DNA of 32,812 bases from Paludibacter propionicigenes (GCA_020721325.1 DYNA01000032.1:1-32812); one strand, 5' to 3'. Counted from the stretch's first letter, positions 9,307-26,717 are shown. A program made the numbers and translations. The notes: generated by a model not told the origin, from the letters alone.

Positions 9307-9371
9307 GGATTAATAATTTAGAAATTAAAAAAAATCCAAAAATGTTGTCTTTTTTTTATTTTTCATAAAAA

Positions 9372-10889
9372 TTATTCCCATTTACTTTCGTCAAATTCTA
9401 CTAAATAAGTCCGTATTTCTACTTTTTCAATTTGCTCAATTTTTTCACAAATCAAATTGGGCAAACGTATATCGTTGGGATAAAAAACCAGATATATTCC
9501 TTTGTTCAAATTCAAACTATTGCAGTAATAAGCCAATTGTTTTTTTCCGGTAAGAAACTGATTTTCATAATAATATATTTTAGTTTCAATTAAATATTCT
9601 TTGGAATTTACATTGATTATCAAATCGCTTTTACCCAATCCGGTATCGGCTTCGCGGTAACTTTTTCCGTTTACTACTTGCAAAAAAGCTTGGATATACG
9701 TTTCAAAACTATACATCAAGGCACTTTCTTTTATTGATGGATAGTTTCCGTTTGCATCTTTTTCTCTGAATGTTTTAAAACCCCTTCGTTTTACATATTC
9801 TTTATAATTTTTTATAAGATTATCGAATATTAAATGACCTTTTTCATCAAAAAGTTCATCTATTATTATATTTCGTAAAATAGTTGTTTTTTCCCCATTC
9901 GTATAAGGATAAAAGGCATCATAGAGTCGTTTTTTGTAAAATGGAACCCAAAATGTAACAAAACCTTCTTCGTCTTGTTTTATTAAACCGTTGGTATGCA
10001 ATAATTTAATTGCCGGACGGTCGATTTTAAAAGGGATTTTGTCTTCGGTAAAAAGCAATCGTTCAACAAAATTACGCTCTTCGGTGGCTTTGTTTAAAAT
10101 ATTTTCAAAATTTTTGTCAATCGTTAAATTCAAATACCAATGCTCTACTTTCAAATAGTCTTGATAATCAATTATTTGCTTGCCTTCAAAATCTTCTACC
10201 AACTTTTGTGCAAATCCATTGACTAAACCCGGCTGATTAGCAGTTATTTGGCTTATTTTGCGCTTTACTTTGTCTTCAAAAAGTTGTCCCGTTTCACTTT
10301 CGTGTTGCGCTAAAAGTTCAAAAACTTCACTTTCTGTAAAATACGGAACACTCAGATTATCAGCTATATTAAAAGGTGAAGCGTTGTCGCTCACAACGCC
10401 CACAATGTTTGAAACACCCACCAAAATAACGCTGTGCAAGCTGTGTTGATAGCGCGAATGATAAACACGCCGTATGGAGTGCAAAAATTGACCAAAATAT
10501 TCTGAATTTATTCCTTCTACTTCGTCAATAATTAACACAAATTTTTTATCTGTTTTCTTTTCAATTTCATAAAAAATTTGAGATATATTTGTTTGTAATA
10601 ATTGAGTTCCCCAAAAAGTATTTATTTTGTCCACAAATTGTTGCATAAACGTTTCTATGGGCGAAATTTTGCTATCTTCAAAATTAATATGAGCTACTTT
10701 ATAACCCGTTTGCTCTAAAACTTCTGAGAGTTGTGCAAAATATGTACTTTTTCCGGTTTGTCGCGGCGCCCAAATGGTAAAATACCGCTTTTCTTTTACC
10801 AATTGCAGACCTTTTTTTATCAAATCGGTTCTGTAAATGGTATAATGTTCTTGCGCAATATTGGGTCCGGAGGTATTAAATCTTCGCAT
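9372..10889 (-). CDS. AAA ATPase with PD-(D/E)XK-like C-terminus, copy 1
   Basis: A 505-residue ATP-binding protein of a family common as isolated genes in Bacteroidota and cyanobacteria, recognised by its RRFNTSGPN start. Walker A is APRQTGKST (41-49) and Walker B VLIIDEVEG (118-126). A sensor-like stretch LVGVSNIVG is near 156-164. The middle region is probably a winged-helix lid. The C-terminus has D422 in KSDLIINV and E435-x-K437 in LIETK, the spacing of a PD-(D/E)XK nuclease fold. The protein is identical to that of the neighbouring copy. The role is unknown; selfish or defence functions have been suggested for similar architectures but nothing here proves either. Confidence 0.85.
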   Translation of the reverse strand: MRRFNTSGPNIAQEHYTIYRTDLIKKGLQLVKEKRYFTIWAPRQTGKSTYFAQLSEVLEQTGYKVAHINFEDSKISPIETFMQQFVDKINTFWGTQLLQTNISQIFYEIEKKTDKKFVLIIDEVEGINSEYFGQFLHSIRRVYHSRYQHSLHSVILVGVSNIVGVVSDNASPFNIADNLSVPYFTESEVFELLAQHESETGQLFEDKVKRKISQITANQPGLVNGFAQKLVEDFEGKQIIDYQDYLKVEHWYLNLTIDKNFENILNKATEERNFVERLLFTEDKIPFKIDRPAIKLLHTNGLIKQDEEGFVTFWVPFYKKRLYDAFYPYTNGEKTTILRNIIIDELFDEKGHLIFDNLIKNYKEYVKRRGFKTFREKDANGNYPSIKESALMYSFETYIQAFLQVVNGKSYREADTGLGKSDLIINVNSKEYLIETKIYYYENQFLTGKKQLAYYCNSLNLNKGIYLVFYPNDIRLPNLICEKIEQIEKVEIRTYLVEFDESKWE

Positions 10890-10907
10890 TTTCTATTATT
10901 TTTTTTA

Positions 10908-10915: not shown

Positions 10916-10943
10916 TAAAAAATTATTATAATTACCTGTAAAA

Positions 10944-12461
10944 TTATTCCCATTTACTTTCGTCAAATTCTACTAAATAAGTCCGTATTTCTACTTTTTC
11001 AATTTGCTCAATTTTTTCACAAATCAAATTGGGCAAACGTATATCGTTGGGATAAAAAACCAGATATATTCCTTTGTTCAAATTCAAACTATTGCAGTAA
11101 TAAGCCAATTGTTTTTTTCCGGTAAGAAACTGATTTTCATAATAATATATTTTAGTTTCAATTAAATATTCTTTGGAATTTACATTGATTATCAAATCGC
11201 TTTTACCCAATCCGGTATCGGCTTCGCGGTAACTTTTTCCGTTTACTACTTGCAAAAAAGCTTGGATATACGTTTCAAAACTATACATCAAGGCACTTTC
11301 TTTTATTGATGGATAGTTTCCGTTTGCATCTTTTTCTCTGAATGTTTTAAAACCCCTTCGTTTTACATATTCTTTATAATTTTTTATAAGATTATCGAAT
11401 ATTAAATGACCTTTTTCATCAAAAAGTTCATCTATTATTATATTTCGTAAAATAGTTGTTTTTTCCCCATTCGTATAAGGATAAAAGGCATCATAGAGTC
11501 GTTTTTTGTAAAATGGAACCCAAAATGTAACAAAACCTTCTTCGTCTTGTTTTATTAAACCGTTGGTATGCAATAATTTAATTGCCGGACGGTCGATTTT
11601 AAAAGGGATTTTGTCTTCGGTAAAAAGCAATCGTTCAACAAAATTACGCTCTTCGGTGGCTTTGTTTAAAATATTTTCAAAATTTTTGTCAATCGTTAAA
11701 TTCAAATACCAATGCTCTACTTTCAAATAGTCTTGATAATCAATTATTTGCTTGCCTTCAAAATCTTCTACCAACTTTTGTGCAAATCCATTGACTAAAC
11801 CCGGCTGATTAGCAGTTATTTGGCTTATTTTGCGCTTTACTTTGTCTTCAAAAAGTTGTCCCGTTTCACTTTCGTGTTGCGCTAAAAGTTCAAAAACTTC
11901 ACTTTCTGTAAAATACGGAACACTCAGATTATCAGCTATATTAAAAGGTGAAGCGTTGTCGCTCACAACGCCCACAATGTTTGAAACACCCACCAAAATA
12001 ACGCTGTGCAAGCTGTGTTGATAGCGCGAATGATAAACACGCCGTATGGAGTGCAAAAATTGACCAAAATATTCTGAATTTATTCCTTCTACTTCGTCAA
12101 TAATTAACACAAATTTTTTATCTGTTTTCTTTTCAATTTCATAAAAAATTTGAGATATATTTGTTTGTAATAATTGAGTTCCCCAAAAAGTATTTATTTT
12201 GTCCACAAATTGTTGCATAAACGTTTCTATGGGCGAAATTTTGCTATCTTCAAAATTAATATGAGCTACTTTATAACCCGTTTGCTCTAAAACTTCTGAG
12301 AGTTGTGCAAAATATGTACTTTTTCCGGTTTGTCGAGGTGCCCAAATGGTAAAATACCGCTTTTCTTTTACCAATTGCAAACCTTTTTTTATCAAATCGG
12401 TTCTGTAAATGGTATAATGCTCTTGCGCAATATTGGGTCCGGAGGTATTAAATCTTCTCAT
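10944..12461 (-). CDS. AAA ATPase with PD-(D/E)XK-like C-terminus, copy 2
   Basis: Encodes exactly the same 505 residues as the gene downstream of it at 9372-10889, so the same motifs apply. Five coding differences between the copies are all synonymous, including changes inside the APRQ codons of Walker A. Each copy keeps its own -7 box, so they need not form one transcription unit. The gene is divergent from the FHA-ABC exporter gene across a 240-bp gap. Near-perfect identity means a recent duplication, ongoing gene conversion or an assembly artefact. There is no transposase or terminal inverted repeat around the pair. Confidence 0.85.
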   Translation of the reverse strand: MRRFNTSGPNIAQEHYTIYRTDLIKKGLQLVKEKRYFTIWAPRQTGKSTYFAQLSEVLEQTGYKVAHINFEDSKISPIETFMQQFVDKINTFWGTQLLQTNISQIFYEIEKKTDKKFVLIIDEVEGINSEYFGQFLHSIRRVYHSRYQHSLHSVILVGVSNIVGVVSDNASPFNIADNLSVPYFTESEVFELLAQHESETGQLFEDKVKRKISQITANQPGLVNGFAQKLVEDFEGKQIIDYQDYLKVEHWYLNLTIDKNFENILNKATEERNFVERLLFTEDKIPFKIDRPAIKLLHTNGLIKQDEEGFVTFWVPFYKKRLYDAFYPYTNGEKTTILRNIIIDELFDEKGHLIFDNLIKNYKEYVKRRGFKTFREKDANGNYPSIKESALMYSFETYIQAFLQVVNGKSYREADTGLGKSDLIINVNSKEYLIETKIYYYENQFLTGKKQLAYYCNSLNLNKGIYLVFYPNDIRLPNLICEKIEQIEKVEIRTYLVEFDESKWE

Positions 12462-12479
12462 TTTTTATTATTTTTTTTA

Positions 12480-12701: not shown

Positions 12702-15569
12702 ATGAAAGAACAAATTTATAAATTTATTATTACCATTAAGGGAAATGAAATAAAAAAATTCGCTTTTTCAAAAGGCGAAAATGCCTCTTTAATTATTGGA
12801 CGAAAATCTACTTCCGATATTGTAATCGATTCAAATTTTGTTTCGGGCAACCATTTGCAATTGCTCAAAGACGAATACGATAATCTATTCATCAAAGACT
12901 TAGACTCCACTAACGGTACTTTCCTTAACGGAAAAAAAATACCGCCGCAAGTAAAAATACCACTAAAATTAAATGATATTGTTGCCTTTGTCGATGGTTC
13001 GGATATTCAGCTTTTGGTCTTAAAACCAAGTGGTTCACAAGCATCTGATAGCAATTTTTCGGCTCAAGGGAAAAACCTTGCCGGAAAAAATGAAATTACT
13101 ATTGGGCGAAATGCCGATTGCGATTTTGTAATTAATAATCAAATCGTTTCGCGCCGACATGCCATTTTAACCAAAAACAGCGACGGTTCATACACTTTGC
13201 GCGACAATAATTCTGCCAACGGAACGTATATCAACAACAGTTTGCTGACCGGAAGCCGCAGAATTTCAGCTACCGATACCATTAAAATTGGTCAAAAAAC
13301 TTATACTTTAAGCGATTTTATTGGCGAAAAAGCTCAACCGCAAACTCCCGATTCAGTTCACGAAGCCTCAAGTCTTCAAAAACTTTTACAAAACAAAAAT
13401 ACAATTGTCATCGGGCGAAGCAAAAATGCCAACTTAATTATTAACGATAATTTAGTTTCTCGGGAACATGCTCGAATAACAAAAGAGAACGGAAAATATT
13501 TTGTCCAAGATTTAGGCTCAACCAACGGAACGTATATAAATGAGGAAAAAGTTTTAAAAAAGCTGGAATTTAAAGCCGGCGATGAACTCCGAATTGGTTT
13601 AAAAGTTTTCAGTCTCGACCAAGCCGAGCGCGAATTGAGCGACACTACGGCTATTCGTGCCACGAATGTAACTAAAAAATTTCCAAATGGTTACGTAGGT
13701 TTGAAACCGATGAGCGTAAACATTCCGAGCCGAGCTTTTATTGCTCTCATGGGACCGTCAGGCTGCGGAAAAACTACTTTAATGAATACCCTGAACGGCG
13801 ACAATCCGGCGACCGGCGGAAGTGTTTACATTCATGGTTTGGAGCTGAAGCGAAACTATCAAATGCTCAAACAGAAAATAGGCTATGTGCCTCAAGATGA
13901 CATTGTTCACCGCGATTTGACCGTTGATAGTTCACTTTATTACGCCGCCAAATTGCGTATGAACCCCGATACAACCGAACAGGAAATTCACCAGCGCATA
14001 GACGAAGTACTTACAAGCCTGAAAATCAATCGCCCCGATATTAGGCAAAAGCCCGTTGGTAAACTTTCGGGCGGGCAGCGAAAAAGAGTTTCAATTGCCG
14101 TAGAATTATTAAATAAACCGGCAATTTTATTTCTTGACGAACCCACATCTCCACTTGACCCCGAAACCATTGACGGTTTTTTAACCAGCATTAAGGAACT
14201 GGCTGAAAAAGAGCAAACTACCGTAATTATGGTTACTCATAAACCTTCCGATTTAAACTATGTGGACAGGGTAATTTTCTTAGGCACAGAGGGTTATCAA
14301 GCTTTTTACGGAAGTGAAAACGAATTGTATGACCATTTTGAAATTAAAGACCGAAATATTATTCGTGTTTATTCCATGCTCGATACGGGAAATAAAGCTG
14401 AAACATGGAATAAAAAATGGTTAGAAGTTTCTCAAAATATAAGTTCTCAGGTAAAAGAACAAAAAGGTTTTGAACGCGAAGCTCAAAAAGTATCTTGGTT
14501 TTTGCAACTTTTCTGGCTCACCAAACGCTATGCCAACATCAAACTCAACGACAAGGGCAATATGGCTCTGCTTATGATGCAACCGATTGTTATTCCGTTG
14601 GCATTGGTTTATTTATTCGACCAACTGCAATTGGGCGTGCTGTTTATGATGGCGGTTTCAGCCATTTGGTTTGGCGTAAGCAATGCTGCCAAAGAGATTG
14701 TAAGTGAAATTCCGATTTATAAACGTGAACGTATGTTCAATTTGAACATCACAACGTACATGCTTTCAAAGATTATTGTGCTTTCCATTATTGCTTTGGT
14801 GCAAGTAACTATTTTTGTTCAAATTGTCGGTTTATTTATCAATAGTTCCAGTACGATTGATATGGTAAATATTCCGCAAGCCACGTTATTTTTGTTCTTT
14901 TTGTCGTTTTCGGCTACTTTAATGGGTTTGCTGCTGTCGGTGGTTTTCGATAATGCAGAAAAAGTGATGACTTTTATACCCATAATTTTAATTCCACAAA
15001 TTATATTTTCCGGTGTAATTGCCGATATTGACCGAAAAGACAAAGAAGTTTTCAGTTATACCATGTTTGGACGCTGGGGAACGGAAGGTTTAGCCCGAAT
15101 ACAAAGCGATTATAACGATTATAGAAAAACGGATACTGTGGTTTTGGTTATCAAAATAGGCGAAGATATTGATACAATTCCTGTTATAGATACGATTTAT
15201 CCGGGTGGAATGGTCAAATTGAAAAATAAAGTAATAAAAATTCCAAAATTTAAAGACACTCTTCTGGTAAATACTACAATAAAAAGTGTAAGTAATTCGG
15301 TGCCGAAAATGATAGTTTATTCAGATACGTTGGTCATTAAAGAAGATGGAAAAGATGAAAACACCGACAAAGACACTGTGCCACACAAAAAAACCGGTGA
15401 AAGTGAATTTAAAGGTGCCGACCCGCTCAAAAATTTAAAATTTTATGAAAATAGTAAACTTATTAACGCTTTTAATTCATTGAATAAGAATATTTTAGCA
15501 ATTAGCATCATCGATATTTTGTTATTAATTTCAATTTATGTATTTTTGAAAAGAAAAGATACCATTTAA
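12702..15569 (+). CDS. ABCG-type transporter with three FHA domains
   Basis: A 955-residue half-transporter that probably works as a dimer in the inner membrane. Three FHA phosphothreonine-reader domains come first: about 30-85 (GR, SGNH, STNGT), 132-185 (GR, SRRH, SANGT) and 235-290 (GR, SREH, STNGT). The nucleotide-binding domain (320-530) has Walker A GPSGCGKTT (351-359), signature LSGGQ (455-459), Walker B ILFLDE (475-480) and H513. Its D-loop reads SPLD instead of the usual SGLD. Membrane helices lie near 622-640, 644-662, 690-713, 728-749, 757-775 and 929-949, with an unusually long outside loop (776-928) before the last. Mycobacterial Rv1747 has the same order with two FHA domains and is controlled by kinase PknF. 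Substrate unknown. First gene of the island. Confidence 0.93.
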   Translation: MKEQIYKFIITIKGNEIKKFAFSKGENASLIIGRKSTSDIVIDSNFVSGNHLQLLKDEYDNLFIKDLDSTNGTFLNGKKIPPQVKIPLKLNDIVAFVDGSDIQLLVLKPSGSQASDSNFSAQGKNLAGKNEITIGRNADCDFVINNQIVSRRHAILTKNSDGSYTLRDNNSANGTYINNSLLTGSRRISATDTIKIGQKTYTLSDFIGEKAQPQTPDSVHEASSLQKLLQNKNTIVIGRSKNANLIINDNLVSREHARITKENGKYFVQDLGSTNGTYINEEKVLKKLEFKAGDELRIGLKVFSLDQAERELSDTTAIRATNVTKKFPNGYVGLKPMSVNIPSRAFIALMGPSGCGKTTLMNTLNGDNPATGGSVYIHGLELKRNYQMLKQKIGYVPQDDIVHRDLTVDSSLYYAAKLRMNPDTTEQEIHQRIDEVLTSLKINRPDIRQKPVGKLSGGQRKRVSIAVELLNKPAILFLDEPTSPLDPETIDGFLTSIKELAEKEQTTVIMVTHKPSDLNYVDRVIFLGTEGYQAFYGSENELYDHFEIKDRNIIRVYSMLDTGNKAETWNKKWLEVSQNISSQVKEQKGFEREAQKVSWFLQLFWLTKRYANIKLNDKGNMALLMMQPIVIPLALVYLFDQLQLGVLFMMAVSAIWFGVSNAAKEIVSEIPIYKRERMFNLNITTYMLSKIIVLSIIALVQVTIFVQIVGLFINSSSTIDMVNIPQATLFLFFLSFSATLMGLLLSVVFDNAEKVMTFIPIILIPQIIFSGVIADIDRKDKEVFSYTMFGRWGTEGLARIQSDYNDYRKTDTVVLVIKIGEDIDTIPVIDTIYPGGMVKLKNKVIKIPKFKDTLLVNTTIKSVSNSVPKMIVYSDTLVIKEDGKDENTDKDTVPHKKTGESEFKGADPLKNLKFYENSKLINAFNSLNKNILAISIIDILLLISIYVFLKRKDTI

Positions 15570-15735
15570 TTTTAAATTGTAAAATGGTTTCAGTGTTAAA
15601 AATTCGATAATGAAAATTTTAAATAGCCAAATTTAGTTATTTTTTTTTAAAAAGAGCAATTATTTTACTATTTTCTTATTTACAATTTTTAAAATTTAAC
15701 AATTAAAAAAAACAACATATAAAAAGTAAAAAATT

Positions 15736-16443
15736 ATGGAAAAATGTAAAAACGGACACTTTTACAATCCGGCTACGCACAGCCATTGTCCATACTGTCC
15801 ACAACCCGAAGGACAAAATAACAACCCGAATGAAACGGTAAAAACCAAGCAATTCGATGGAAATCAGGGCGATAAAACCGAGCATTTTAATACGAAAAAT
15901 GCCGACCCTTCCAAAACGGATATGTTTGACAAACCGGAGAATAACCACAACAAAACACAGCTTTTCGACAACGCAAACGAAACCGATGTTTTTACAAAAG
16001 ACGTTAAAAAAACTGCGATTGTAAACGAAAACAAAGAGCAAGATTGGAACAAAACCTACATAGGCATTGACGATGACGACGATTTGCCCGATGGAAATCA
16101 AGACAAACTCCGCGACAACGCACCCAGAGCGCAACGGAAACTCGTTGGCTGGCTGGTTTCGTACACCATCGACCCGCTCGGAATCGATTTTCGACTTTAC
16201 GAAGGAAAAAATGTAATCGGTTCAGCTCCCGACAACGAGATAACCGTTATGGGCGATAAATTGGTATCTTCGCGTCATGCAACCATTTTATTTAGAAGTA
16301 ATAAATTTAGATTGAAAGATGAATTTTCTACCAACGGAACGTTTTTAAACAACGAAGATATTGAAGATGAAGTGATTGCATTAACCGATGGCGATATTAT
16401 CAAGGTAGGTGCAACCTTTTTTAAATTCAGGTCTGCATTATAA
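15736..16443 (+). CDS. Zinc-finger/FHA protein with repeated KTxxF motifs
   Basis: A 235-residue soluble protein. The N-terminus (C4, H8, H17, C18, C21; CKNGH and HCPYC) looks like a small zinc ribbon. Residues 30-110 are low in structure and carry evenly spaced threonines, each followed at +3 by Phe: T37, T48, T61, T74 and T83, then weaker T93 and T107. Four of the five TxxF sites are preceded by Lys. An acidic DDDDD stretch follows. The FHA domain (about 150-230) has SSRH and STNGT, but the Arg of the phosphate-binding GR pair is Ser163. The repeats suggest a multi-phosphorylated docking platform for the FHA proteins next door (inference). The gene follows the ABC gene after 166 nt and precedes the vWA gene by 39 nt. 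Confidence 0.85.
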   Translation: MEKCKNGHFYNPATHSHCPYCPQPEGQNNNPNETVKTKQFDGNQGDKTEHFNTKNADPSKTDMFDKPENNHNKTQLFDNANETDVFTKDVKKTAIVNENKEQDWNKTYIGIDDDDDLPDGNQDKLRDNAPRAQRKLVGWLVSYTIDPLGIDFRLYEGKNVIGSAPDNEITVMGDKLVSSRHATILFRSNKFRLKDEFSTNGTFLNNEDIEDEVIALTDGDIIKVGATFFKFRSAL

Positions 16444-16482
16444 TTTTATTCTTTTTTTCTTTTTCTTATAAAAAAATAAAAT

Positions 16483-18108
16483 ATGAAATACATAAAAATT
16501 ACTGTTTTTTTTATTTTCATTTCTCCTTTTGTCTTTGCCCAGCAAATTGGAAAAGTAAGTAAAACCGAGTTGGAAGAATTTCCGAAAGTTAAATTTACTC
16601 TCAACTTGTTTAAACCCGAAGAAAAAGCTACCGGCGACTTTCAACTCTTTGAAGATGAGAAGAGTATGGAATTTACCGTTGAGCGTTCCAATGCTCCGAT
16701 TTTGGACAAAACCAAACATATTTTGATTCTTTTTGAGGACATGACTTCTCATATTAACCAAAGAGATTATTTTAGGTATGTTTTGGAAACAGCCATTCCA
16801 AAATTCGTAAATAAAGGCGATAAAGTGAATATTGCTGTTTTCGATAGAAATAGAGGAGAAAAAACGTCTTTACGATTTTTACTCGATAATTATTCAGATG
16901 ATGTTGATTTATTGGTAAATGCAGTAAAAACTTTCCGAACGATTTACGACGAACACAGCAACAAAAAAAGTTCCGAATTGTACGATGCCATTGACGATGG
17001 ATTGAATAATTTGCATGAAAAATTTCCCAATAAAAATGCTTTTATACTCGAACTTTCTGCCGGTTTTAATTTAAGAGACAACAATGCTGTTACACAAGAA
17101 GGCTTAATTGCTACCTCGCGTGAGTACAGAATACCAATTTATTCGGTGTATTACAACATTTACGACAACAGAACCGACAACGATTATGCTGAAAAGTCTT
17201 TCGGTCTTTTCTTCTTATCCGATAAAAAACGAGACGATAAAGAAAAAGCCGCCGAACAAGTAACCGAATTTATGAAAAATGCTTTAAAAAGGCATTATGG
17301 CTACAATTACACGTTTACTTATACTTCCAACGCTAAACAAGACGGTAAAATTCACAATTTAGTGATTAAAGTAGATGGACAAACCGTTGAAGAAAAACTA
17401 CAAGCACCGTCTTGCGATTTGGTTTGTTTTGTGAAAAATAATTTGGTATTAGTTGTATTGGGATTTGTTGCACTTTTGGGTATTGGAATTGGTCTTTTTG
17501 TTTTTTCAAAAAAGAAAAAAGAACAAGAACAAAGAATGCAAGCCCAAAAAGAAGCCGAACAAACCGAAAAATTAAAGCAAATTGAAATTCAACGCCAAAA
17601 AGATAAAGAAGAGCAATTGAAACGCGAAGAAGCTATGCGTCTTGAAAATGAGCGACTTGAACGCGACCAACGCGAACAGCGTGAACAACAGTTGCGTATT
17701 CAACAACAAATGGAGTCTGACAAATTGGCAGAACAACGCCGCAGACAAATGGAAATGCAACAAATGCAAGAACACGAGCGAAATGCCAAACTTTTGGACG
17801 AAATGAAACGAAATAGAGGCGGTTTGCCTTCGCTCAAAGTGGTTTCGCACGGTTTGAACAAAGATTTTGTAATAAATAAACCCGTTATTTCTTTTGGTAG
17901 AGAAAAAAATCTGAACGAGTATTTTATGCAAGAACCTACGGTTTCGGGCAAACATTTTGAAATTCAATACGTTGCAGGTGAATATTTTTTACAAGATTTG
18001 GGCAGCACCAATGGTACAAAAATCAATGGAACACCTGTAAAAAGGCATAAACTCAAACACAACGACATTATTCAAGCAGGAAAAGCGCAAATGATGTTTA
18101 TTTGGTAA
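16483..18108 (+). CDS. Periplasmic vWA-like, transmembrane, coiled-coil, FHA protein
   Basis: A 541-residue bitopic protein. A signal peptide (1-19, ending VFA) sends the N-terminal half to the periplasm. Residues 77-270 have the von Willebrand A pattern, with strand KHILILFEDMTSH and the helix/strand order that follows, but the metal site is degenerate: D86-x-T88-x-H90 instead of DxSxS, and LSAGFN where a TDG-type loop is expected. One membrane helix (319-341) is followed by KKKK, a strongly charged coiled coil (343-440), and an intact cytoplasmic FHA domain (450-535; GR, SGKH, GSTNGT). A periplasmic sensing domain thus faces a cytosolic phosphothreonine reader. The next gene, PP2C, begins 33 nt later. 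Confidence 0.85.
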   Translation: MKYIKITVFFIFISPFVFAQQIGKVSKTELEEFPKVKFTLNLFKPEEKATGDFQLFEDEKSMEFTVERSNAPILDKTKHILILFEDMTSHINQRDYFRYVLETAIPKFVNKGDKVNIAVFDRNRGEKTSLRFLLDNYSDDVDLLVNAVKTFRTIYDEHSNKKSSELYDAIDDGLNNLHEKFPNKNAFILELSAGFNLRDNNAVTQEGLIATSREYRIPIYSVYYNIYDNRTDNDYAEKSFGLFFLSDKKRDDKEKAAEQVTEFMKNALKRHYGYNYTFTYTSNAKQDGKIHNLVIKVDGQTVEEKLQAPSCDLVCFVKNNLVLVVLGFVALLGIGIGLFVFSKKKKEQEQRMQAQKEAEQTEKLKQIEIQRQKDKEEQLKREEAMRLENERLERDQREQREQQLRIQQQMESDKLAEQRRRQMEMQQMQEHERNAKLLDEMKRNRGGLPSLKVVSHGLNKDFVINKPVISFGREKNLNEYFMQEPTVSGKHFEIQYVAGEYFLQDLGSTNGTKINGTPVKRHKLKHNDIIQAGKAQMMFIW

Positions 18109-18141
18109 TTTTTTAAAATTTTATAATAAAAAAATATAAAA

Positions 18142-20121
18142 ATGGCACAAAATATTTTCAATATACAAAAAGACGTTTGCAGCCTATCCGATGTGGGCAA
18201 TGTGCGACCTAAAAACGAAGACAATCAAGGATATACGAACACCGAAAATGGTCATATTTTTGTGGTTTGCGATGGAATGGGCGGACACGTAGCCGGCGAA
18301 TTGGCGTCAAAAATAGCTGTTGAAACCATTATCGAATATTTTATCACTCGAAATGTTCCAAACATTTATGTGGGCATGAATGAAGCTATTGAATTGGCTA
18401 ACAGTAATATATACCAACGCGCCGTAGAAGACCGCAGCCTCAGAGGTATGGGAACAACGGTGGTTTTGTTGGTTGTAAAAAACGACAAAATTTTTATTGC
18501 TCACGTGGGCGACAGTCGAATTTACATTCATTCCAACGGCGAATTGCACCGAATTACAAAAGACCATTCGTTTGTGCAAACCCTTGTAGATAAGGGAACT
18601 ATAAGCGATGACGATGCCGAACATCACCCGCGAAAAAATGAATTGATGCGAGCCTTAGGAATTGATAAACAGGTAACGGTTGAAGTTTTTGATAGTGCTA
18701 TTTTGGCAAAAAATGGCGACATGTTTTTGATGTGCAGCGACGGTTTGAACGGCATGGTGAACGATTTAACGATGGAATCTGTTTTGAACAAACCCGAAAC
18801 GGTAACTCAAAAAGGCGAAGAATTAATTAACCTTGCCAAAATGGCAGGCGGAAAAGACAACATTACGCTTACGCTGATTGAAATAACCAACAGCCCGCAT
18901 CGAAATTCGCGATTTGTTTCAAAATCGCCCAAAAGAATAACCATTCCAAAAACCAATCCCGATATAAAATTGGTTAATACCCTTTCGGGAAACGATTTTT
19001 CCGAAAAACCGGAAGTTGAAAATAAACAAGTTGATAAATTTTCTAAAAAAAAAGAGCCGGAATTTACAAAAAATAATGAACAAAACGACATGCCACCTAC
19101 CAACGAGAACGAAAAAAATAAGAAAAAACTTTTTACTATCGTTGTAGGAATTTTAGCAGTAGTGGTGCTGGTGGTGGTTTTATTTTTTGCAGGAGTTTTC
19201 GATAAAAAACCTTATGAAGTTTTAATAATTGAACAAAACTCAAAAATGAAGTTAGGTTATTTTGAAACACTTGATGAAGCAAAAGATGCAGCACGATTGG
19301 ATATTGAACAGAGAAAAGTAAAAGCAAAATTTGAAATTTGGCTTTATAAAAATAAATTCGCAAGTCTTGAATTTACAGAAGACCCAGATGCGCCTGTTAT
19401 TCCTTTAAATTCAGAAGAAAACGAATTAAACAAATCGGTAGTTGTTCCTGAGGGTGTTGGTTGGAAAGCTTTGTATGAAGAATACGGCGTTTGCAAATGC
19501 TACATTATTGAATCAAATCCGGCATCAAGTTTTACAAAAGATATTAATTTAAAGGCAAATACAACTTACATTATACCGCTTCATTTTTCAAGTAAAAAAG
19601 AACACAATCCAAAAAAATACATGGATTATTCACTCGAAAAAAAGGGCTATGATAACAACGGAAATTGTTCAAAATACAACAAATGCGTAGCAACAACGGG
19701 CGGTACAAGCAGAATTATTAAACCCAAAGAAGACCCGAAAAAGGAAAACTCGAAAAATGAGGTTGCCCCAACAGAAGAAAATACCAACGAAACTACTGTA
19801 AATGACCCGAATACAGAAAAACCAAAAACAGAAACTACCACCGAACTTACGCCCGAACAAAAAAAGGCTGCCGCATTAAAAGCTTATGAAGATGCAAAAA
19901 TTAAATATGAAGAGGCTCAAAAAGCTACAAAGGACGCACATGCGGAATATGTAAAAGTTACAGAAGAACTTCAAATAGAAAAATTAGGTAAAAAAGACAA
20001 AGAAAAAATAAAACGTCTTGACACGGAAATAACCTTGTCAAGCAATAAATATAAAGATGCCCAAAAAGCTGAAAAAGCAGCAAAAGAAGCAATGATTAAA
20101 GCCAAAGCGGAGTTAGATTAA
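18142..20121 (+). CDS. PP2C Ser/Thr phosphatase with periplasmic tail
   Basis: A 659-residue membrane-anchored phosphatase. The cytoplasmic PP2C domain (10-248) has every core motif: RPKNEDN, D44 in CDGMGGH, GMGTT, HVGDSR with D124, SDGLNG with D200 and GGKDN with D239. A low-complexity linker leads to one membrane helix (329-351), which puts the C-terminus in the periplasm. There, residues 357-412 form a small α/β segment that loosely resembles a SPOR fold. Residues 433-480 resemble a divergent LysM domain (VPEG...LYEEYGV...SNP...YIIP). The tail (570-659) is a Lys/Ala-rich coiled coil. It is the only phosphatase in the island and so the likely off switch for all three kinases. The LysM-like and SPOR-like calls are tentative; PP2C is certain. 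Confidence 0.94.
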   Translation: MAQNIFNIQKDVCSLSDVGNVRPKNEDNQGYTNTENGHIFVVCDGMGGHVAGELASKIAVETIIEYFITRNVPNIYVGMNEAIELANSNIYQRAVEDRSLRGMGTTVVLLVVKNDKIFIAHVGDSRIYIHSNGELHRITKDHSFVQTLVDKGTISDDDAEHHPRKNELMRALGIDKQVTVEVFDSAILAKNGDMFLMCSDGLNGMVNDLTMESVLNKPETVTQKGEELINLAKMAGGKDNITLTLIEITNSPHRNSRFVSKSPKRITIPKTNPDIKLVNTLSGNDFSEKPEVENKQVDKFSKKKEPEFTKNNEQNDMPPTNENEKNKKKLFTIVVGILAVVVLVVVLFFAGVFDKKPYEVLIIEQNSKMKLGYFETLDEAKDAARLDIEQRKVKAKFEIWLYKNKFASLEFTEDPDAPVIPLNSEENELNKSVVVPEGVGWKALYEEYGVCKCYIIESNPASSFTKDINLKANTTYIIPLHFSSKKEHNPKKYMDYSLEKKGYDNNGNCSKYNKCVATTGGTSRIIKPKEDPKKENSKNEVAPTEENTNETTVNDPNTEKPKTETTTELTPEQKKAAALKAYEDAKIKYEEAQKATKDAHAEYVKVTEELQIEKLGKKDKEKIKRLDTEITLSSNKYKDAQKAEKAAKEAMIKAKAELD

Positions 20122-20126
20122 TACCA

Positions 20127-20144
20127 GTAAATTTTTTTATTTAC
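20127..20144 (+). other. Small hairpin between phosphatase and kinase
   Basis: GTAAAT and ATTTAC flank six T, in the 42-nt gap after the PP2C stop. It is too weak and too near the next gene to be an efficient terminator. It could mark an mRNA processing site. Confidence 0.25.
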
Positions 20145-20163
20145 ACAATCAAAAATAAGGAAA

Positions 20164-20973
20164 ATGTATCCGATTATAAAAGAAAATTTAGAAATAAAAC
20201 GCGAACTCGGAAGCGGTGGAACAGCCAAAGTATTTTTGGCTTACGACCGTTGGGCGAAAAAAAATGTTGCCATAAAAGCCTTGTTTAAAACACGTTACGA
20301 AGATAAAATCATTCGTGAAAAATTTAAGCAAGAGGCAAATTTGTATCTGTATTTGGAGCATGAAAACATTGCCAATTTGACCGATTACATTGTAACGCCC
20401 GAAACGGATTACATTGTTATGGAATTTATTGACGGCATCAACTTGGAAGAGTACATTCAAACCAAATCGGGTCCGATAGCCGACGAAAATTTGGTGCGAA
20501 TTTTTTCGCAAGTGCTTCGCGGAGTGGCTTATGCACATCACAACAATGTTACTCATCTCGATATAAAACCCAGCAACATAATGATAACCAGAGATATGCA
20601 CGTAAAAGTGTTGGATTTTGGCATTTCGTCGTCAAAGGACGAAAAAATAGAAAGTGCCAAACGCCGCATGGGTACGCCCATGTACATGAGTCCTGAGCAA
20701 ATTGATATGAAAAACATTGGAAGACAAAGCGATATCTATTCTTTGGGCGTAACTTTACATCACATGGTTACCGGACAGTTGCCTTACAAAGGGGGTTCGA
20801 TAAAAGAAATTTTTTATAAAATAAAAAACGAAAAACTGCCGAGAATCAAAGACTTATACCCTTTTGCAAATCCGAAATTGCAGCCTATTATAGACGCAGC
20901 AACTGAAAAAGATTTGAAAAAACGCTATCAAACTTGCGAAGAGTTTGAATATTATCTTTCTACTATTTTATAA
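20164..20973 (+). CDS. Soluble Ser/Thr protein kinase, non-RD type
   Basis: A 269-residue kinase consisting of the catalytic domain alone; no membrane segment. K38 (VAIK), E57, catalytic D133, N138 and DFG (151-153) are present, along with SPE (176-178), so it should be active. Two features differ from the other kinases of the island: the glycine loop ends in Ala (GSGGTA), and the catalytic motif is HLD instead of HRD, which makes it a non-RD kinase that need not be switched on by activation-loop phosphorylation. GTPMYMSPEQ of the P+1 loop is conserved. It lies between the phosphatase and the FHA-RDD gene (gaps of 42 and 26 nt). It may act as the cytosolic effector kinase or a constitutive writer (inference). 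Confidence 0.94.
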   Translation: MYPIIKENLEIKRELGSGGTAKVFLAYDRWAKKNVAIKALFKTRYEDKIIREKFKQEANLYLYLEHENIANLTDYIVTPETDYIVMEFIDGINLEEYIQTKSGPIADENLVRIFSQVLRGVAYAHHNNVTHLDIKPSNIMITRDMHVKVLDFGISSSKDEKIESAKRRMGTPMYMSPEQIDMKNIGRQSDIYSLGVTLHHMVTGQLPYKGGSIKEIFYKIKNEKLPRIKDLYPFANPKLQPIIDAATEKDLKKRYQTCEEFEYYLSTIL

Positions 20974-20999
20974 TATTTTTTTATAAAGAAAAATAAAAA

Positions 21000-22004
21000 A
21001 TGGAAATAAAAATTATAGGACGCTCGCCCGAATGCGATTTTTTTTATGAAGACCCGTTTATTTCGCGACAGCATTTGCAATTTGTGAAATATTCTGATTT
21101 CGATTATCGCATTATTGACATCGATTCTACCACCGGAACTTACGTAAATGGGCAAAAAATACCTCCCGGAACCGAATATAAATTGGAAAAATCCGATGTT
21201 GTGAAAATTGGGAACACGCTTTTAAAATGGAATGAATTTTTCAAAACGCCTTCCAAAACGGTTTCACAACCAGATATTTACGCTACTAAACCTGATGAAG
21301 AGGTTTTAAATAAAAATTCCGGTAATTTAGAACCTACTTTGCCCAACGAACTTTTTGAAATGGTAAAAGCTTTTGCCGAAGATGGAGTTTATACTGAGAA
21401 AGAGCAAATTGCTTTAAAATCGTATTGCCAAACGCATAACATTGATTATGAGAAATATATAGAGCCTTTGATTAATGAAGCCATTTTTAATGTAAATAAG
21501 AACAAAAAAGAGCAAGAGCTTAAAAATCAAAACGATAGCCAAAACAACAAAACCATTCACAATTATACGGTCGATACCATGGGCGATTTGGTTTTTAAAC
21601 CATTGTATGCCACGTTTGGTCAGCGTTTGGGAGCTTTTCTTATTGATGCCATTATTTTGAGTGTTTTGGAAGTTTTAATCAGTTTTGTTTATGTTAGCCT
21701 AAACGGAATGTATGATTATGAAGATTTACTGATTTTGAATGTGTTATATATAGTAATTTCGTGGTTTTATTTTGCAATTTTGGAAAGCAGCAAAGCCGGA
21801 GCAACTTTTGGAAAACAAGCGGTAGGATTGTTTGTGGTGAATGAAAATAATAATAGAATATCATTTTTTCAAGCTTCCGGTCGATTTTTTGCTCGTATTT
21901 TATCGGTTTTAATTTTATTTATCGGTTATTTGATGCCATTGTGGACAGAAAAAAAACAGGCATTACACGATTTAATTTCGGGTTGCATTGTAGTAAAAAA
22001 ATAA
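21000..22004 (+). CDS. FHA-RDD membrane protein with helical linker module
   Basis: A 334-residue protein with three parts. The FHA domain (1-75) has GR and SRQH, but STTGT replaces the usual STNGT, so a conserved Asn is lost. Residues 117-165 form a helical module with EDGVYTEKEQIALK in the centre, which recurs in the kinase encoded just downstream. The C-terminal half (about 203-334) is an RDD membrane domain: the R209-x-GAFLID block, then helices near 212-235, 243-262 and 297-313, GATFGKQAVGL and the closing QALHDLISG. RDD proteins are proposed transporters or ion exchangers, but roles are poorly known. Coupling FHA to RDD suggests a phosphothreonine-controlled membrane protein. A 29-nt gap separates it from the next kinase. 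Confidence 0.9.
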   Translation: MEIKIIGRSPECDFFYEDPFISRQHLQFVKYSDFDYRIIDIDSTTGTYVNGQKIPPGTEYKLEKSDVVKIGNTLLKWNEFFKTPSKTVSQPDIYATKPDEEVLNKNSGNLEPTLPNELFEMVKAFAEDGVYTEKEQIALKSYCQTHNIDYEKYIEPLINEAIFNVNKNKKEQELKNQNDSQNNKTIHNYTVDTMGDLVFKPLYATFGQRLGAFLIDAIILSVLEVLISFVYVSLNGMYDYEDLLILNVLYIVISWFYFAILESSKAGATFGKQAVGLFVVNENNNRISFFQASGRFFARILSVLILFIGYLMPLWTEKKQALHDLISGCIVVKK

Positions 22005-22033
22005 TTATTTTGCAAAAAATAGATTAAAAAATT

Positions 22034-23596
22034 ATGATAGGAAAAGAAATAAACAATTATAAAGTAGAAAGTCTTTTGGGACAAGGCGGCATGGGAAGCG
22101 TTTACAAAGCCACACACACGGTTTTGAAACGAATAGCAGCCCTAAAATTATTGCATTTTAATTTTTCAGAAAATCCAAAAGTATTGGAACGTTTTAAAAA
22201 TGAAGCTCTTACGCTTGATGACTTAAAGCACGATTCCATTGTACAGTTGCTTGATTATGGAAAATTTGAAAATCGCCCGTTTTTGCTACTCGAATACATC
22301 GAGGGCGTGCCTCTTGATGATTATATAAAAAATATTTCGGGTCCGATACCGGAAGAACGGGCGTTGGAATTGCTTTTGCAAATGCTCGAAGGCATCAATT
22401 ATGCACACAAAAAAACGGTGGTACATCGCGATATTAAGCCTTCCAATTTTATGCTTACGCCCGAAGGCAAAATTAAAATTCTCGACTTTGGAATTGCTAA
22501 AATCTTGTCAGACAACAACATGAACATGACACGCGAAGGACAAAAGTTAGGAACTGTTCCTTACATGAGTCCCGAACAAATTCAGGGCAAATTGATTGAT
22601 ACACGAAGCGACATTTATTCACTCGGAGTTACTCTTTTTCAGATGCTTACGGGAAAAGAACCTTATGAAAATACCTTTACGGAATGGGAACTTTCCAATA
22701 AAATAGTTTTCGAGCCGTTGCCGAAAGCTAATTTAATTTACCCGCATATTTCCGATGGCACTCAGCATTTAATTGATAAGGCTACCGCCAAAAATAAAGA
22801 CGATAGGTTTCAGACATGCGAAGAATTTATATCGGAAGTTCACAATTTGTTACCCAATAAAGAATTGATAAACAATGAATTAGCAAATAAAAAATCCATA
22901 GAAGAATCCACGAAAGAATATTCAAAATTATTTGAAGTTTTTTATGAAGATAAAATAATTTCCGAATCAGAGCGAGAACTTTTAAAAAGAAAACAGGTAG
23001 AATTGAATTTAGACGAATCGGTTGTTTTGGAAATTGAAAAAAATATTTTCGCAAAATTTTCAAAAAATGAAAATTCAAAAAATGAAAATTCTAATCAAAC
23101 GACAGAAAAACCGATTGCATCGGATATTGTAATAACTGAAAACTTTAATTTGAAATCAAAAAATAAAAATAAAAAAATAGGTATTTTAGTAGGTGCAGTA
23201 CTGGTTTCGATTTTAATTTTTTTTGGTATCAAAATGATGTTTTTTTCAGAATCAGAAAAAATTGATTATGAAAATACAAATTTTGAAACTCAATACATTG
23301 GAAAAATGGAATGGGAAGGAACGGAAGTTTCTATTCGATTGAAAATTAATAAAGTAGAGCCGGATTGGACGGTTTATTACGATTTTTTCTTAAAAGCCGA
23401 GCAAAAATTAACAAACAAGCAAGCTCGAATAAATACCCAAACCAATGAAATTACTTTTTTATTAAAAGATGCAGAAGATGCTGAAAAAGAAATAATTAAA
23501 CTGCTAAATACAGCAAAAATAAATAAAAATTCTATCGGAAAAATAGAATTTACTTCAACAAATAATGAATGGAAATTAATGCAATTAATACAGTAA
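22034..23596 (+). CDS. Transmembrane Ser/Thr protein kinase
   Basis: A 520-residue bitopic kinase. The cytoplasmic catalytic domain (9-272) is canonical: LGQGGMG, K38 in ALK, HRDIKPSN with D133, DFG (151-153) and GTVPYMSPEQ. Residues 298-342 hold a helical module (LFEVFYEDKIISESERELL) that matches the one in the FHA-RDD protein. A low-complexity linker with a small NSKNE repeat follows (about 346-352), then a single membrane helix (382-404). The remaining 115 residues would be periplasmic and β-rich, with WEGTEVSIRLKIN and YYDFFLK strands. That domain is unrecognised and may sense a ligand. The lipoprotein gene starts 4 nt after the stop, so the two are probably translationally coupled. Confidence 0.94.
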   Translation: MIGKEINNYKVESLLGQGGMGSVYKATHTVLKRIAALKLLHFNFSENPKVLERFKNEALTLDDLKHDSIVQLLDYGKFENRPFLLLEYIEGVPLDDYIKNISGPIPEERALELLLQMLEGINYAHKKTVVHRDIKPSNFMLTPEGKIKILDFGIAKILSDNNMNMTREGQKLGTVPYMSPEQIQGKLIDTRSDIYSLGVTLFQMLTGKEPYENTFTEWELSNKIVFEPLPKANLIYPHISDGTQHLIDKATAKNKDDRFQTCEEFISEVHNLLPNKELINNELANKKSIEESTKEYSKLFEVFYEDKIISESERELLKRKQVELNLDESVVLEIEKNIFAKFSKNENSKNENSNQTTEKPIASDIVITENFNLKSKNKNKKIGILVGAVLVSILIFFGIKMMFFSESEKIDYENTNFETQYIGKMEWEGTEVSIRLKINKVEPDWTVYYDFFLKAEQKLTNKQARINTQTNEITFLLKDAEDAEKEIIKLLNTAKINKNSIGKIEFTSTNNEWKLMQLIQ

Positions 23597-23600
23597 GATT

Positions 23601-24578
23601 ATGAAAATGAGAATTTTATCTTTTTTAATTATTTTAGTTGGTCTTTATGCTTGTTCGGGCAATTGTGAAGAAGAGGTTGCTCTTTTAAAGAACAAAATAA
23701 CTGAATATGAGCAACAAACAGAGCTTACGACTTTAGCCATGAACGAATACGACCAACAGCTTCAAACGTATAAAACCAAAGACGATTCGCTTAAAATGTT
23801 TCGCGACTCAATTGAGATGTTATCAACAAAAATGCGTTCTTCGGGGCGTGCGAGTGCTTCCGATAACAAAGCCATGAACAATTACGTTAAAGAAATGCAG
23901 CGTATTTTAGGTGAAAATAAGGAACTTACAAAAATTTTGGAAGAAAAAGTCGGTAAAGGAAACATTGGCGATAATCCGGCTTTGGTAGTGAGTGTTTTGG
24001 CACAAAACATTGAAACAAAAGAACGCGAAATTGCTGATTTACAGCGACAAATAACCGAATTGCAAAAAGAAGTAAAAGGTTTGAAAGTGGAAATTGAAAC
24101 AATTACTGATGTAAACATAAAAATGACGGATACTTTGGGAAATCTAAAAAATGAAAATCAAAACTTAACAAAAGAAGTTAAAGTGTTGAAAGTTAATAGA
24201 ATAACGAATAAAATATATAATAAAAAAGGAAACGATATAACAGATAATAAGATAAAACTTTATAACACCATCGGGTCGGTAGAGATTTGTTTTACATTGG
24301 AAAAAAATAAATTTGCCGATGTTGGAAATCACAATATTTATGTTTGTTTAATTAAAGGAGGTTCTGTTTTGACCAATTCCTCGTCAAATCTTTTTACGTC
24401 AGATGCTGGAAAACAAATTGGTTATACCATAAAAACGACAGTAAATTATCAGGGAGAATTGATTAGAACCTGCACGAATTGGCAAATTGGAAATAATAAA
24501 ATCGAAAAAGGCAGTTATGAAGTTCTGATTTACGATGAAAAAGGTCGAAAAATTGGAAATGATTTGTTTTCGATATAA
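23601..24578 (+). CDS. Coiled-coil lipoprotein
   Basis: A 325-residue envelope lipoprotein. The signal peptide ends in a clear lipobox, LYAC, with Cys18; the next residues are SGNCEEE. Two long coiled-coil stretches (about 24-118 and 133-200, the second with regular Leu/Ile heptads) lead to a β-rich C-terminal domain (about 202-325). That domain has a strand pattern like a small β-sandwich and contains two Cys. No enzymatic motif is seen. Tight coupling to the preceding membrane kinase (4 nt) suggests it is that kinase's periplasmic partner or ligand carrier. M3 is an alternative start with the same signal peptide. It is the last gene before the large hairpin. Confidence 0.85.
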   Translation: MKMRILSFLIILVGLYACSGNCEEEVALLKNKITEYEQQTELTTLAMNEYDQQLQTYKTKDDSLKMFRDSIEMLSTKMRSSGRASASDNKAMNNYVKEMQRILGENKELTKILEEKVGKGNIGDNPALVVSVLAQNIETKEREIADLQRQITELQKEVKGLKVEIETITDVNIKMTDTLGNLKNENQNLTKEVKVLKVNRITNKIYNKKGNDITDNKIKLYNTIGSVEICFTLEKNKFADVGNHNIYVCLIKGGSVLTNSSSNLFTSDAGKQIGYTIKTTVNYQGELIRTCTNWQIGNNKIEKGSYEVLIYDEKGRKIGNDLFSI

Positions 24579-24590
24579 AATATTGATAAA

Positions 24591-24643
24591 TCCTAACAAA
24601 ACAAATCTGAAAAATGTATTTTTCAGATTTGTTTTGTTAAGGA
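24591..24643. terminator. Long perfect hairpin, possible terminator or attenuator
   Basis: Arms of 24-25 nt (24591-24614 and 24619-24643) pair perfectly apart from one extra A near the base, with a TGTA loop. It starts 12 nt after the lipoprotein stop and 47 nt before the next kinase gene. The arms contain AACAAATCTGAAAAA and its complement. No T run follows on the plus strand, so termination is plausible but not textbook. It could partly uncouple the last kinase from the rest of the island. Confidence 0.6.
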
Positions 24644-24689
24644 AAATAAATCAAAAGAAACTTTTTATTAATTTACCTAATTTTTTTCA

Positions 24690-26717
24690 ATGATAGGGCA
24701 AACCATTCAAAATTACACAATTGAAAGCAAAATAGGCGAAGGCGGAATGGGCGATGTTTATTTAGCTAAGCACATACTTTTAGATAAAAAAGTGGCTATA
24801 AAAATGCTGAATGTCAATTTAAGTAAGCACAAAGAATTTTTAGCGCGTTTCGATATTGAGGCACGTACTTTAAATAAATTGAAAAGTAAATATATAGTAG
24901 AACTTATTGATTATAACCAACTTAATGGAGTTCCATATTTAATAATGGAATATGTGGAAGGCACACCTTTAGACGACTTTATAAAGAAAATTTCAGGTCC
25001 CATACCCGAATCGCGTGCCATTAAGTATATGCTACAAATTTTGGAAGCTGTTGATACAGCGCATAAAGCAGGAATTATTCACCGCGATTTAAAACCTTCA
25101 AATTTCATTTTGACTCAAAAAGATGATATTAAAATATTAGATTTTGGAATTGCAAAAATGATGTCGGAAACGGAAAACCATCAACTGACTAAAATGGGAC
25201 AAGGTATGGGTACCCTGCCTTATATGAGTCCGGAACAAATCTTAACAACCAAACTTGAAAATACCAGCGATATTTATTCTTTGGGCGTTTGTCTTCACCA
25301 TTTTATTTCAGGCAAAGAGCCTTATAATCTGGAACTTACACGCCGTCAAATAGAAGATAAAATTATCCAAGAACCTTTAGAACGAATTAAAAATATTTAT
25401 CCGTTTGTAAGTGAAAAAATTCAAGCTATTGTGGACAAAGCAACTGAAAAACAAGCAGATAAACGTTTCCAATCTTGTTCAGAATTTGCAGAAGCTTTAC
25501 AATTGGAAAAAACAATTTCCATCAATTCAAATAGTGATAATATTTTATTAGACAAATCGAAACAGAATATTGTAAATAGGGAACTAAACGAGGAAAAACA
25601 AAAGAATGAAAAAACACAAATAGTTGAAAAAACACAAATAATTGAAAAGAGTGTTATTGCAGAAACAGCTAAAAATGAGCTTAAAACGAACAATAAACAA
25701 TTAGAAAACAACCTCAATGAACAGGAACTTCCAAAAATAGATGTTCAAAAAAATGAACAAAAAACAGTTTTAGAAAATAAAAAATCGAATAAAAATATTT
25801 TTATATTTTCAGGTATTTTAATTTTAATATTTATTGTATTATTTATATTTTTTGGTCAAAATAATAATAAAATAGAGGAAGTAAAACAACATAATGAAAT
25901 TGAAACTTCTGAAAATATTGAAAACGATAAAACAAAAATTAAGGCAGTAGATGTTCCAAAAAATTGTGAAGCGGATTTTAAAAATGGTTTGGCAATTTTC
26001 ATAAAAGAAAATAATAAAAATTATGGTATTTTGAATGAAAATTGTGATACAATTTTAAGCTCGTGTAATAAAATAGAATGGCTCAAAGAAGGGACAGTAT
26101 TATTAGCTCAAAAAGATGGTAAATTTGCACTAATCCACGCGCAAAATCCAAAGGAAATGGATTTTAAATATAAAAGTTTTTCGGTATTTAGCAAGAGTTT
26201 AAAAAAGTATGCTTGGAAAGCCGAAAATTTTGAAAATAAGTCGATTGTATTTTTTAATAATGAATTTATTCTTACTTCAACTTACCAATCGATGGAATTT
26301 AGAAGTTTCTGGGGCAGTGGTTATTACGTTGTAGCAGCCAACGGAAAAAAAGGTATTTTTTCAAAAGAAAAAGGTGAAATTTTAGCATGTAATTATCAAA
26401 AAATTCTTTGGATTGATAATTTTGAATACTTTTGGGTGCAAGATGTTGATACAAAAAAATGGGGTGCTTACAATAAAGATGGTAAATTAACGGCTATTCA
26501 AATGGCTTATGAAGAAGACTTTAAAGAACTTAATTCCAATTTGTTAGCTGTTAAAAAAAATGGAATGTGGGGAGTTGTTTCGATGAATGGACAAATAAAA
26601 TTAAATTTTGAATATCAAGCAATTACAAAAACACAAATGGAAAAATTCTCGTTTTCGGCAAGCCATAAAAGTATGCAAACTCATTATTTCGATGCCAATG
26701 GAAATAAAGTTAATTAG
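24690..26717 (+). CDS. Transmembrane Ser/Thr kinase with WG repeats
   Basis: A 675-residue bitopic kinase, clearly paralogous to the 520-residue kinase of the island (same ISGPIPE block near residue 101 and PLDD(Y/F)IK). The catalytic domain (9-272) has GEGGMG, K38, HRDLKPSN with D133, DFG and GTLPYMSPEQ. A long hydrophilic linker (275-368) with a duplicated EKTQI(V/I) motif leads to a membrane helix (369-388). The outer part (430-675) contains WG-type β repeats: NYGILNE, DGKFALIH, GKKGIFSKEKGEIL, KWGAYNKDGKL and MWGVVSMNGQI. WG repeats are known in Bacteroidota envelope proteins and are thought to mediate binding. murB follows after 19 nt. Confidence 0.94.
   Translation: MIGQTIQNYTIESKIGEGGMGDVYLAKHILLDKKVAIKMLNVNLSKHKEFLARFDIEARTLNKLKSKYIVELIDYNQLNGVPYLIMEYVEGTPLDDFIKKISGPIPESRAIKYMLQILEAVDTAHKAGIIHRDLKPSNFILTQKDDIKILDFGIAKMMSETENHQLTKMGQGMGTLPYMSPEQILTTKLENTSDIYSLGVCLHHFISGKEPYNLELTRRQIEDKIIQEPLERIKNIYPFVSEKIQAIVDKATEKQADKRFQSCSEFAEALQLEKTISINSNSDNILLDKSKQNIVNRELNEEKQKNEKTQIVEKTQIIEKSVIAETAKNELKTNNKQLENNLNEQELPKIDVQKNEQKTVLENKKSNKNIFIFSGILILIFIVLFIFFGQNNNKIEEVKQHNEIETSENIENDKTKIKAVDVPKNCEADFKNGLAIFIKENNKNYGILNENCDTILSSCNKIEWLKEGTVLLAQKDGKFALIHAQNPKEMDFKYKSFSVFSKSLKKYAWKAENFENKSIVFFNNEFILTSTYQSMEFRSFWGSGYYVVAANGKKGIFSKEKGEILACNYQKILWIDNFEYFWVQDVDTKKWGAYNKDGKLTAIQMAYEEDFKELNSNLLAVKKNGMWGVVSMNGQIKLNFEYQAITKTQMEKFSFSASHKSMQTHYFDANGNKVN

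Follow-up and report, generated by a model that had tools for sequence, protein, structure and literature searches.

The window, that is, the whole stretch of 32,812 nucleotides analysed from Paludibacter propionicigenes (GCA_020721325.1 DYNA01000032.1:1-32812), shows nine ORFs on the plus strand between positions 12702 and 26717, whose coordinates and strand were re-checked and whose domains were assigned by Pfam. Their order is FHA3-ABCG, zinc-ribbon-FHA (Zn-FHA), secreted vWA-TM-FHA, PP2C-TM, kinase, FHA-RDD, kinase-TM, lipoprotein and kinase-TM-WG, with successive intergenic gaps of 166, 39, 33, 42, 26, 29, 4 and 111 bp. The nine genes and the domains named in the original prediction were borne out by the coordinates and Pfam and, in the case of the vWA domain, by a structural model and Foldseek. 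Active-site motifs are complete in all three kinases, the PP2C phosphatase and the ABC ATPase. The six readers of the original prediction are six FHA domains spread over four proteins, but those of the Zn-FHA and FHA-RDD proteins are non-canonical.

The first gene (12702..15569, +) encodes a half-exporter of 955 aa containing three FHA domains, an ABC ATPase and an ABC2 membrane domain (Pfam: three FHA, ABC_tran and ABC2_membrane). Its ATPase motifs are intact: Walker A (351), the signature LSGGQ (455), Walker B (475) and the H-loop. The canonical FHA phosphothreonine-binding consensus consists of GR, SxxH and NG (PMC1262709), and the translation shows all three elements in each of the three FHA domains of the exporter. 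It is followed by the Zn-FHA gene (15736..16443, +), whose 235-aa product contains a zinc ribbon (CxNGH...CPYC), a disordered linker and an FHA domain (Pfam FHA and alignment). The third gene (16483..18108, +) encodes a 541-aa protein with a signal peptide, a vWA domain, a TM segment, a cytosolic coiled coil and a canonical FHA domain, complete by GR, SxxH and NG (Pfam FHA, alignment and structure). Its vWA domain has no Pfam match; the AlphaFold model of residues 18-322 (pLDDT 88.8, pTM 0.84) matches vWA/integrin-type A domains of the PDB in Foldseek, several of which are flanked by beta-sandwich domains like those of integrin beta and inter-alpha-inhibitor, and the predicted fold supports the vWA identity. 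The MIDAS motif (DxSxS...T...D) is degenerate in the window, with ED for DxS and SAG for SDG, and intact in the relative L090. The next gene (18142..20121, +) encodes a 659-aa protein consisting of a PP2C phosphatase, a TM segment and an extracytoplasmic C-terminal region (Pfam PP2C_2 and NCBIfam); the phosphatase is of the Stp1/IreP type (NF033484, 266.8 against a cut-off of 230 bits), with intact metal-binding Asp motifs.

The remaining genes encode three Hanks kinases (Pfam Pkinase) and two other proteins. The first kinase, kin1 (20164..20973, +; 269 aa), is soluble and non-RD (HLDIKPSN), and the motif HLD[IL]KP is kept in all seven orthologs examined. The FHA-RDD membrane protein (21000..22004, +; 334 aa; Pfam FHA and RDD) shows TTG instead of TNG in its FHA domain, that is, TG in the place of NG. 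The second kinase, kin2 (22034..23596, +; 520 aa), is of the RD type and has a TM segment and a small extracytoplasmic domain, whose model (pLDDT 51.7) was too poor for use. A helical module seen by eye in both the FHA-RDD protein and kin2 was dropped, since phmmer similarity was absent. The coiled-coil lipoprotein (23601..24578, +; 325 aa) shows a lipobox, LYAC, recognised by eye, 66% identity to its counterpart in the congener and no match to a Pfam family. The last kinase (24690..26717, +; 675 aa), also RD, contains a TM segment and a WG-repeat extracytoplasmic domain, in which one WG repeat scored just below the Pfam cut-off (E=5e-5).

A perfect 22-bp inverted repeat with a 2-base loop (24594..24639, no strand) was seen in the gap between the lipoprotein and last kinase genes and is a possible terminator or attenuator; since it sets the last kinase apart, this gene may form its own transcription unit. 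Promoter and terminator scans gave site numbers no higher than in shuffled sequences. The murB gene starts 19 bp past the last kinase and lies about ten genes away in the congener, so that it was rejected as an operon member and is regarded as flank. The flanking genes are mostly housekeeping: tsaE, cmk, murB and phosphoglucomutase. On the minus strand, 9368-10892 and 10940-12464 are tandem genes encoding 505-aa AAA_35 ATPases with 5 mismatches in 1525 bp, either a very recent duplication or an assembly artefact.

A repeated threonine motif in the Zn-FHA linker

The small Zn-FHA protein carries a row of KTx[IV]F repeats, which the original prediction overlooked and which is the most telling feature of the operon. 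The linker region at 15841..16068 (+) contains KTKQF, KTEHF, KTDMF, KTQLF, ETDVF, KTAIV and KTYIG, and was evaluated by shuffle tests. The window linker alone shows 6 sites of the motif [KR]Tx[IVLMF] against 0.29 expected, a number equalled by none of 20000 shuffles. Zn-FHA linkers bear one to five copies of this motif, and the linkers of 15 orthologs together contain 46 sites against 2.5 +/- 1.5 (maximum of 9 in 2000 shuffles), in a test that preserves composition and ignores kinship among the orthologs. When a final F/Y is required, the same 15 linkers have 20 sites against 0.07. A hydrophobic residue at +2 is present in 46 of 56 KT/RT sites of the linkers, compared with 12 of 65 other threonines of the same linkers and with 75 of 227 KT/RT sites in unrelated ORFs. 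Ten held-out orthologs, found after the motif was defined, show 24 sites against 1.2 +/- 1.1; one of these lineages lacks the zinc ribbon and retains repeats of the type DP[KR]TQ[IV]. Recent DNA duplication was rejected as the source of the array, because synonymous and middle codons vary among its copies in the window; repetition within one sequence, together with diverged codons, argues against simple inheritance as well.

The last kinase also has this motif, as the pair KTQIV-KTQII (25611..25649, +) in its juxtamembrane linker. Across 14 TM kinases, juxtamembrane linkers have 9 sites where 2.0 were expected (a count reached in 0 of 2000 shuffles), but in a patchy distribution restricted to 5 of the 14; examples in the TM kinases of relatives are DKTIIEE (L089), EKTVVVE (L098) and SKTVILEKTIIV (L103).

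The solved FHA structures nearest to the Zn-FHA domain are those of Rv0020c, GarA and Rv1747, with OdhI also among the nearest. In the branch of the window this domain shows GS where GR, with the phosphate-binding Arg, is expected, a degeneration that the original prediction likewise overlooked; elsewhere the position is GT or GA, and GR is retained in L043, L088, L089 and L098-L100. Given this loss, the window protein is better read as a scaffold and substrate than as a reader. We infer that its linker is a multi-site phospho-acceptor scaffold that would recruit the exporter and envelope proteins through their FHA domains; the array could also have binding partners other than the FHA domains of the operon.

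Distribution of the operon in Bacteroidota

The congener (G010, L041) contains the nine genes in unchanged order with 55-86% identity. The nine-gene unit originally proposed stands in the congener, but the unit conserved more widely consists of Zn-FHA, vWA-TM-FHA, PP2C-TM and the non-RD kinase kin1 (hereafter the core), plus FHA-ABCG in most loci, which recurs in other Bacteroidota families with 25-45% identity. The RDD protein, the lipoprotein and the WG kinase are kept in the congener, the last by its kinase domain only as the extracytoplasmic part is different, but they are lineage-specific: elsewhere the RDD/lipoprotein slot contains an FHA-TM protein, an FHA-TM-M48 protease or a LEA_2 protein.

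Seven loci of other families (L043, L045, L061, L088, L098, L099 and L100) show Zn-FHA, vWA-TM-FHA, PP2C and kin1. L043, L045 and L061 belong to other families of the same order as the window. L043 and L045 have these genes in the same sequence followed by a gene encoding an FHA protein, after which L045 continues with kin2 and the L043 contig stops. L061 shows FHA-ABCG, the four core genes, FHA-RDD and kin2, and then the contig ends. At a greater distance, L088, L098, L099 and L100 contain Zn-FHA, vWA-TM-FHA and PP2C, then kin1 and FHA proteins, and then an M48 protease, LEA_2 and FHA2-ABCG; a TM kinase lies on one side or the other, and in three of them M48 is an FHA-TM-M48 fusion. In the more distant classes of L089 and L090, Zn-FHA, PP2C, M48, LEA_2 or a LEA_2-like protein, FHA-ABCG and a kinase are retained, and L090 has in addition a vWA protein with intact MIDAS and a trypsin-TM-FHA protein. 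The fusions of FHA-TM-M48 or trypsin-TM-FHA type (L098:11877-13247, L099:8200-9573, L100:5497-6717 and L090:7201-8430) are apparently periplasmic proteases wired to cytosolic phosphothreonine signals. Genes for lipid transport of the MlaE-MlaF-MlaD type lie between the TM kinase and Zn-FHA genes of L088 (4183-6738), and the LEA_2, M48 and MlaEFD neighbours hint at an envelope role.

The FHA-ABCG fusion is rare, being present in 6 of 396 genomes sampled across the phylum. Core genes adjoin 11 of 16 FHA-ABCG loci (G000, G010, L061, L042, G140, G312, G337, G377, G604, G718 and G841), a count that includes G140, where the contig stops short of the FHA part. Four loci lack core genes: in G171 and G690 the FHA-ABCG gene is alone, in G171 on a separate contig from the core, and in G568 and G381 only M48 and LEA_2 are beside it. 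The contig of the last locus, G681, where M48 is adjacent, is too short to judge. The operon PP2C is the only one of the genome in G312, G604, G718, G841, G140 and G377, and G604 and G841 have all their kinases there too. At a density of one to three PP2C genes per 2-4 Mb, about 1-2% of genomes would by chance have one no more than 10 kb from any chosen gene. The pairwise divergences of five shared genes are correlated (r 0.65-0.95, seven loci). The recurrence of the same genes together in many families makes the linkage far more than chance, and the co-conservation of neighbours across Bacteroidota, on which the original prediction had been staked, held.

The core is also found with no adjoining ABC gene, in L067, L045 and the f210 lineage. 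L067 comes from the culturable Rhodocytophaga aerolata and shows Zn-FHA, vWA-FHA, PP2C and a kinase in this order. The ABC gene is therefore the most detachable part, and the core may have other outputs. In family f210 (L128, L130, L132, L133 and L134) the core is cut to a scaffold-FHA protein, a vWA-like-TM-FHA protein and PP2C; the scaffold has lost the zinc ribbon and shows the DP[KR]TQ[IV] repeats, and FHA-ABC is not adjacent. Three-gene relatives consisting of a C-terminal-FHA protein of about 480 aa, PP2C and a kinase are present at L048:11441-15681, L051:8355-12745 and L052:2668-7207.

Comparison with known systems and proposed mechanism

We file the operon as a variant of the FHA-ABC exporter and kinase systems of the PknF/Rv1747 kind, outside the T6SS, KKP, GarA and TerY-P families. 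An FHA part is fused N-terminal to an ABC ATPase and ABC2 membrane domain, and three Hanks kinases are in the same operon, an arrangement kept in relatives. The likeness to PknF/Rv1747 of M. tuberculosis, judged here from genes, extends to putative phosphatase reversal and disordered linkers. In contrast to Rv1747, the candidate acceptor array is on a separate protein, Zn-FHA, the exporter has three FHA domains, and the operon, a Bacteroidota one, itself encodes the phosphatase as well as additional kinases, a membrane effector and the vWA-TM-FHA protein. The TerY-P triad groups vWA, PP2C and kinase as this operon does, but here the vWA protein is secreted, membrane-tethered and FHA-bearing (signal peptide, TM-FHA) rather than of the cytosolic TerY type, and no Ter domain was found in the Pfam scans of the window, as the original prediction had stated of Ter core genes. 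Its claim that the full gene set is undescribed also agrees with our literature searches, which found no such system in open-licence papers and so give weak evidence.

Taking the observed genes, domains, linkage, co-divergence and conserved motif array together, we consider it somewhat probable that the operon encodes a self-contained threonine-phosphorylation module controlling an ABCG-type exporter and other envelope proteins via the linker array. The transmembrane RD kinases would sense a cue outside the inner membrane through their varied extracytoplasmic domains, and the small non-RD kin1 would work in the cytosol. These kinases would phosphorylate the KTx[IVLM][F/Y]-like sites of the Zn-FHA linker and sometimes their own juxtamembrane linkers, and the phosphorylated array might serve as a multivalent docking platform, bound by the three FHA domains of the exporter and by those of the vWA protein and a membrane effector, which would be RDD in the window and M48 or trypsin-like proteases in relatives. 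Docking would gather the FHA proteins and switch or cluster, and so gate, the exporter, and the membrane PP2C would reset the array. By analogy, the exporter substrate may be an envelope component. In the mycobacterial system, phosphorylation by PknF makes the FHA-linker region of Rv1747 condense more readily and PstP reverses this (PMC9312465), and in T6SS, condensates of PpkA and Fha recruit T6SS parts (PMC12607579).

A broader reading, held more tentatively, is that this Bacteroidota system possibly uses a dedicated scaffold of tandem phosphothreonine sites to bring FHA-tagged membrane machines (ABCG exporter, RDD and vWA proteins, periplasmic M48 or trypsin-like proteases) together in a switchable assembly, which any membrane protein could join by gaining an FHA domain. 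Exporter control as in the FHA-ABC system of M. tuberculosis would then be one case of a broader pattern, with FHA domains connecting various envelope machines to a common phospho-scaffold. Ser/Thr kinase signalling of Bacteroidota is little studied, and knowledge of substrates and reader motifs has long been deficient for bacterial kinases; judged by sequence alone, the operon brings together a candidate acceptor motif, the protein that bears it and the domains likely to read it.

Since some loci have the core or the ABC gene without the other, the strongest rival is that the Zn-FHA, vWA-FHA, PP2C and kinase core is a general envelope or cell-wall hub and the exporter an optional client or passenger. 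The loci with only one of the two parts fit such a hub, as does the fact that the operon is nearly the whole Ser/Thr kinase system of small genomes; however, a rare fusion that adjoins the core at 11 of 16 loci and diverges congruently with it indicates a direct functional tie in most lineages, and we regard the hub as rather doubtful. Less probable, and unlikely on balance, is that Zn-FHA regulates a metabolic enzyme as GarA and OdhI do in Actinobacteria, its phosphorylated N-terminal motif being bound by its own FHA domain and the enzyme released. In GarA and OdhI an ETTS threonine motif precedes the FHA domain (PMC12321487). The layout of Zn-FHA, with a candidate phospho-motif before the FHA domain, is alike, and both proteins are among its closest solved relatives. 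The GarA sequence after ETTS runs on with VF, which would fit Tx[IV]F. Zn-FHA, however, has several motifs rather than one, a zinc ribbon, and in the window no phosphate-binding Arg, so that self-binding of phosphothreonine should fail there; its NCBIfam OdhI score is 29.8 against a cut-off of 200, and the operon contains no metabolic enzyme and no link to 2-oxoglutarate dehydrogenase.

The module controlling an exporter was also weighed against anti-phage defence (KKP, PD-T4-6 or MADS kinases) and the post-translational switch of T6SS. The kinases match the PADLOC PD-T4-6 models with strong scores, but these are kinase-domain models, of which each of the three kinases matches dozens, and many Hanks kinases should match them; the matches were judged generic and a defence system was rejected as highly improbable. 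Neither an FHA-exporter nor a vWA-TM-FHA protein is known to have a role in KKP, PD-T4-6 or MADS. The KKP prophage module likewise groups at least two kinases with PP2C and FHA, and is defined by one cold-shock-domain kinase and one FHA-domain kinase (PMC11341870), but both are absent from the operon by Pfam, the window contains no prophage genes, and the flanks are mostly housekeeping. Least probable of all, to the point of being barely credible, is the T6SS switch PpkA/PppA/Fha, with which the operon has in common the enzymatic logic of membrane kinase and PP2C, an FHA scaffold, a vWA domain and envelope partners. Here, however, vWA is on an FHA protein instead of the PpkA kinase, and the output is an exporter. 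The sheath gene TssC/VipB is absent from the window genome, the congener, G114, G604 and G841, with a positive E. coli control, in line with the absence of secretion core genes noted in the original prediction, and TssR was not found in the window genome or congener; the switch was rejected for the window genome since VipB and TssR were not found, a negative that rests on a genome 91% complete, with 9% missing. A point in its favour is the relative L045, where 13421-18678 (G114:C558), upstream of the core, contains genes for an ABC ATPase, an FtsX-like permease and three members of the TssR family, one of which has the TssR vWA domain. As a T6SS sheath gene was not detected in G114, TssR may also have a role beyond T6SS.
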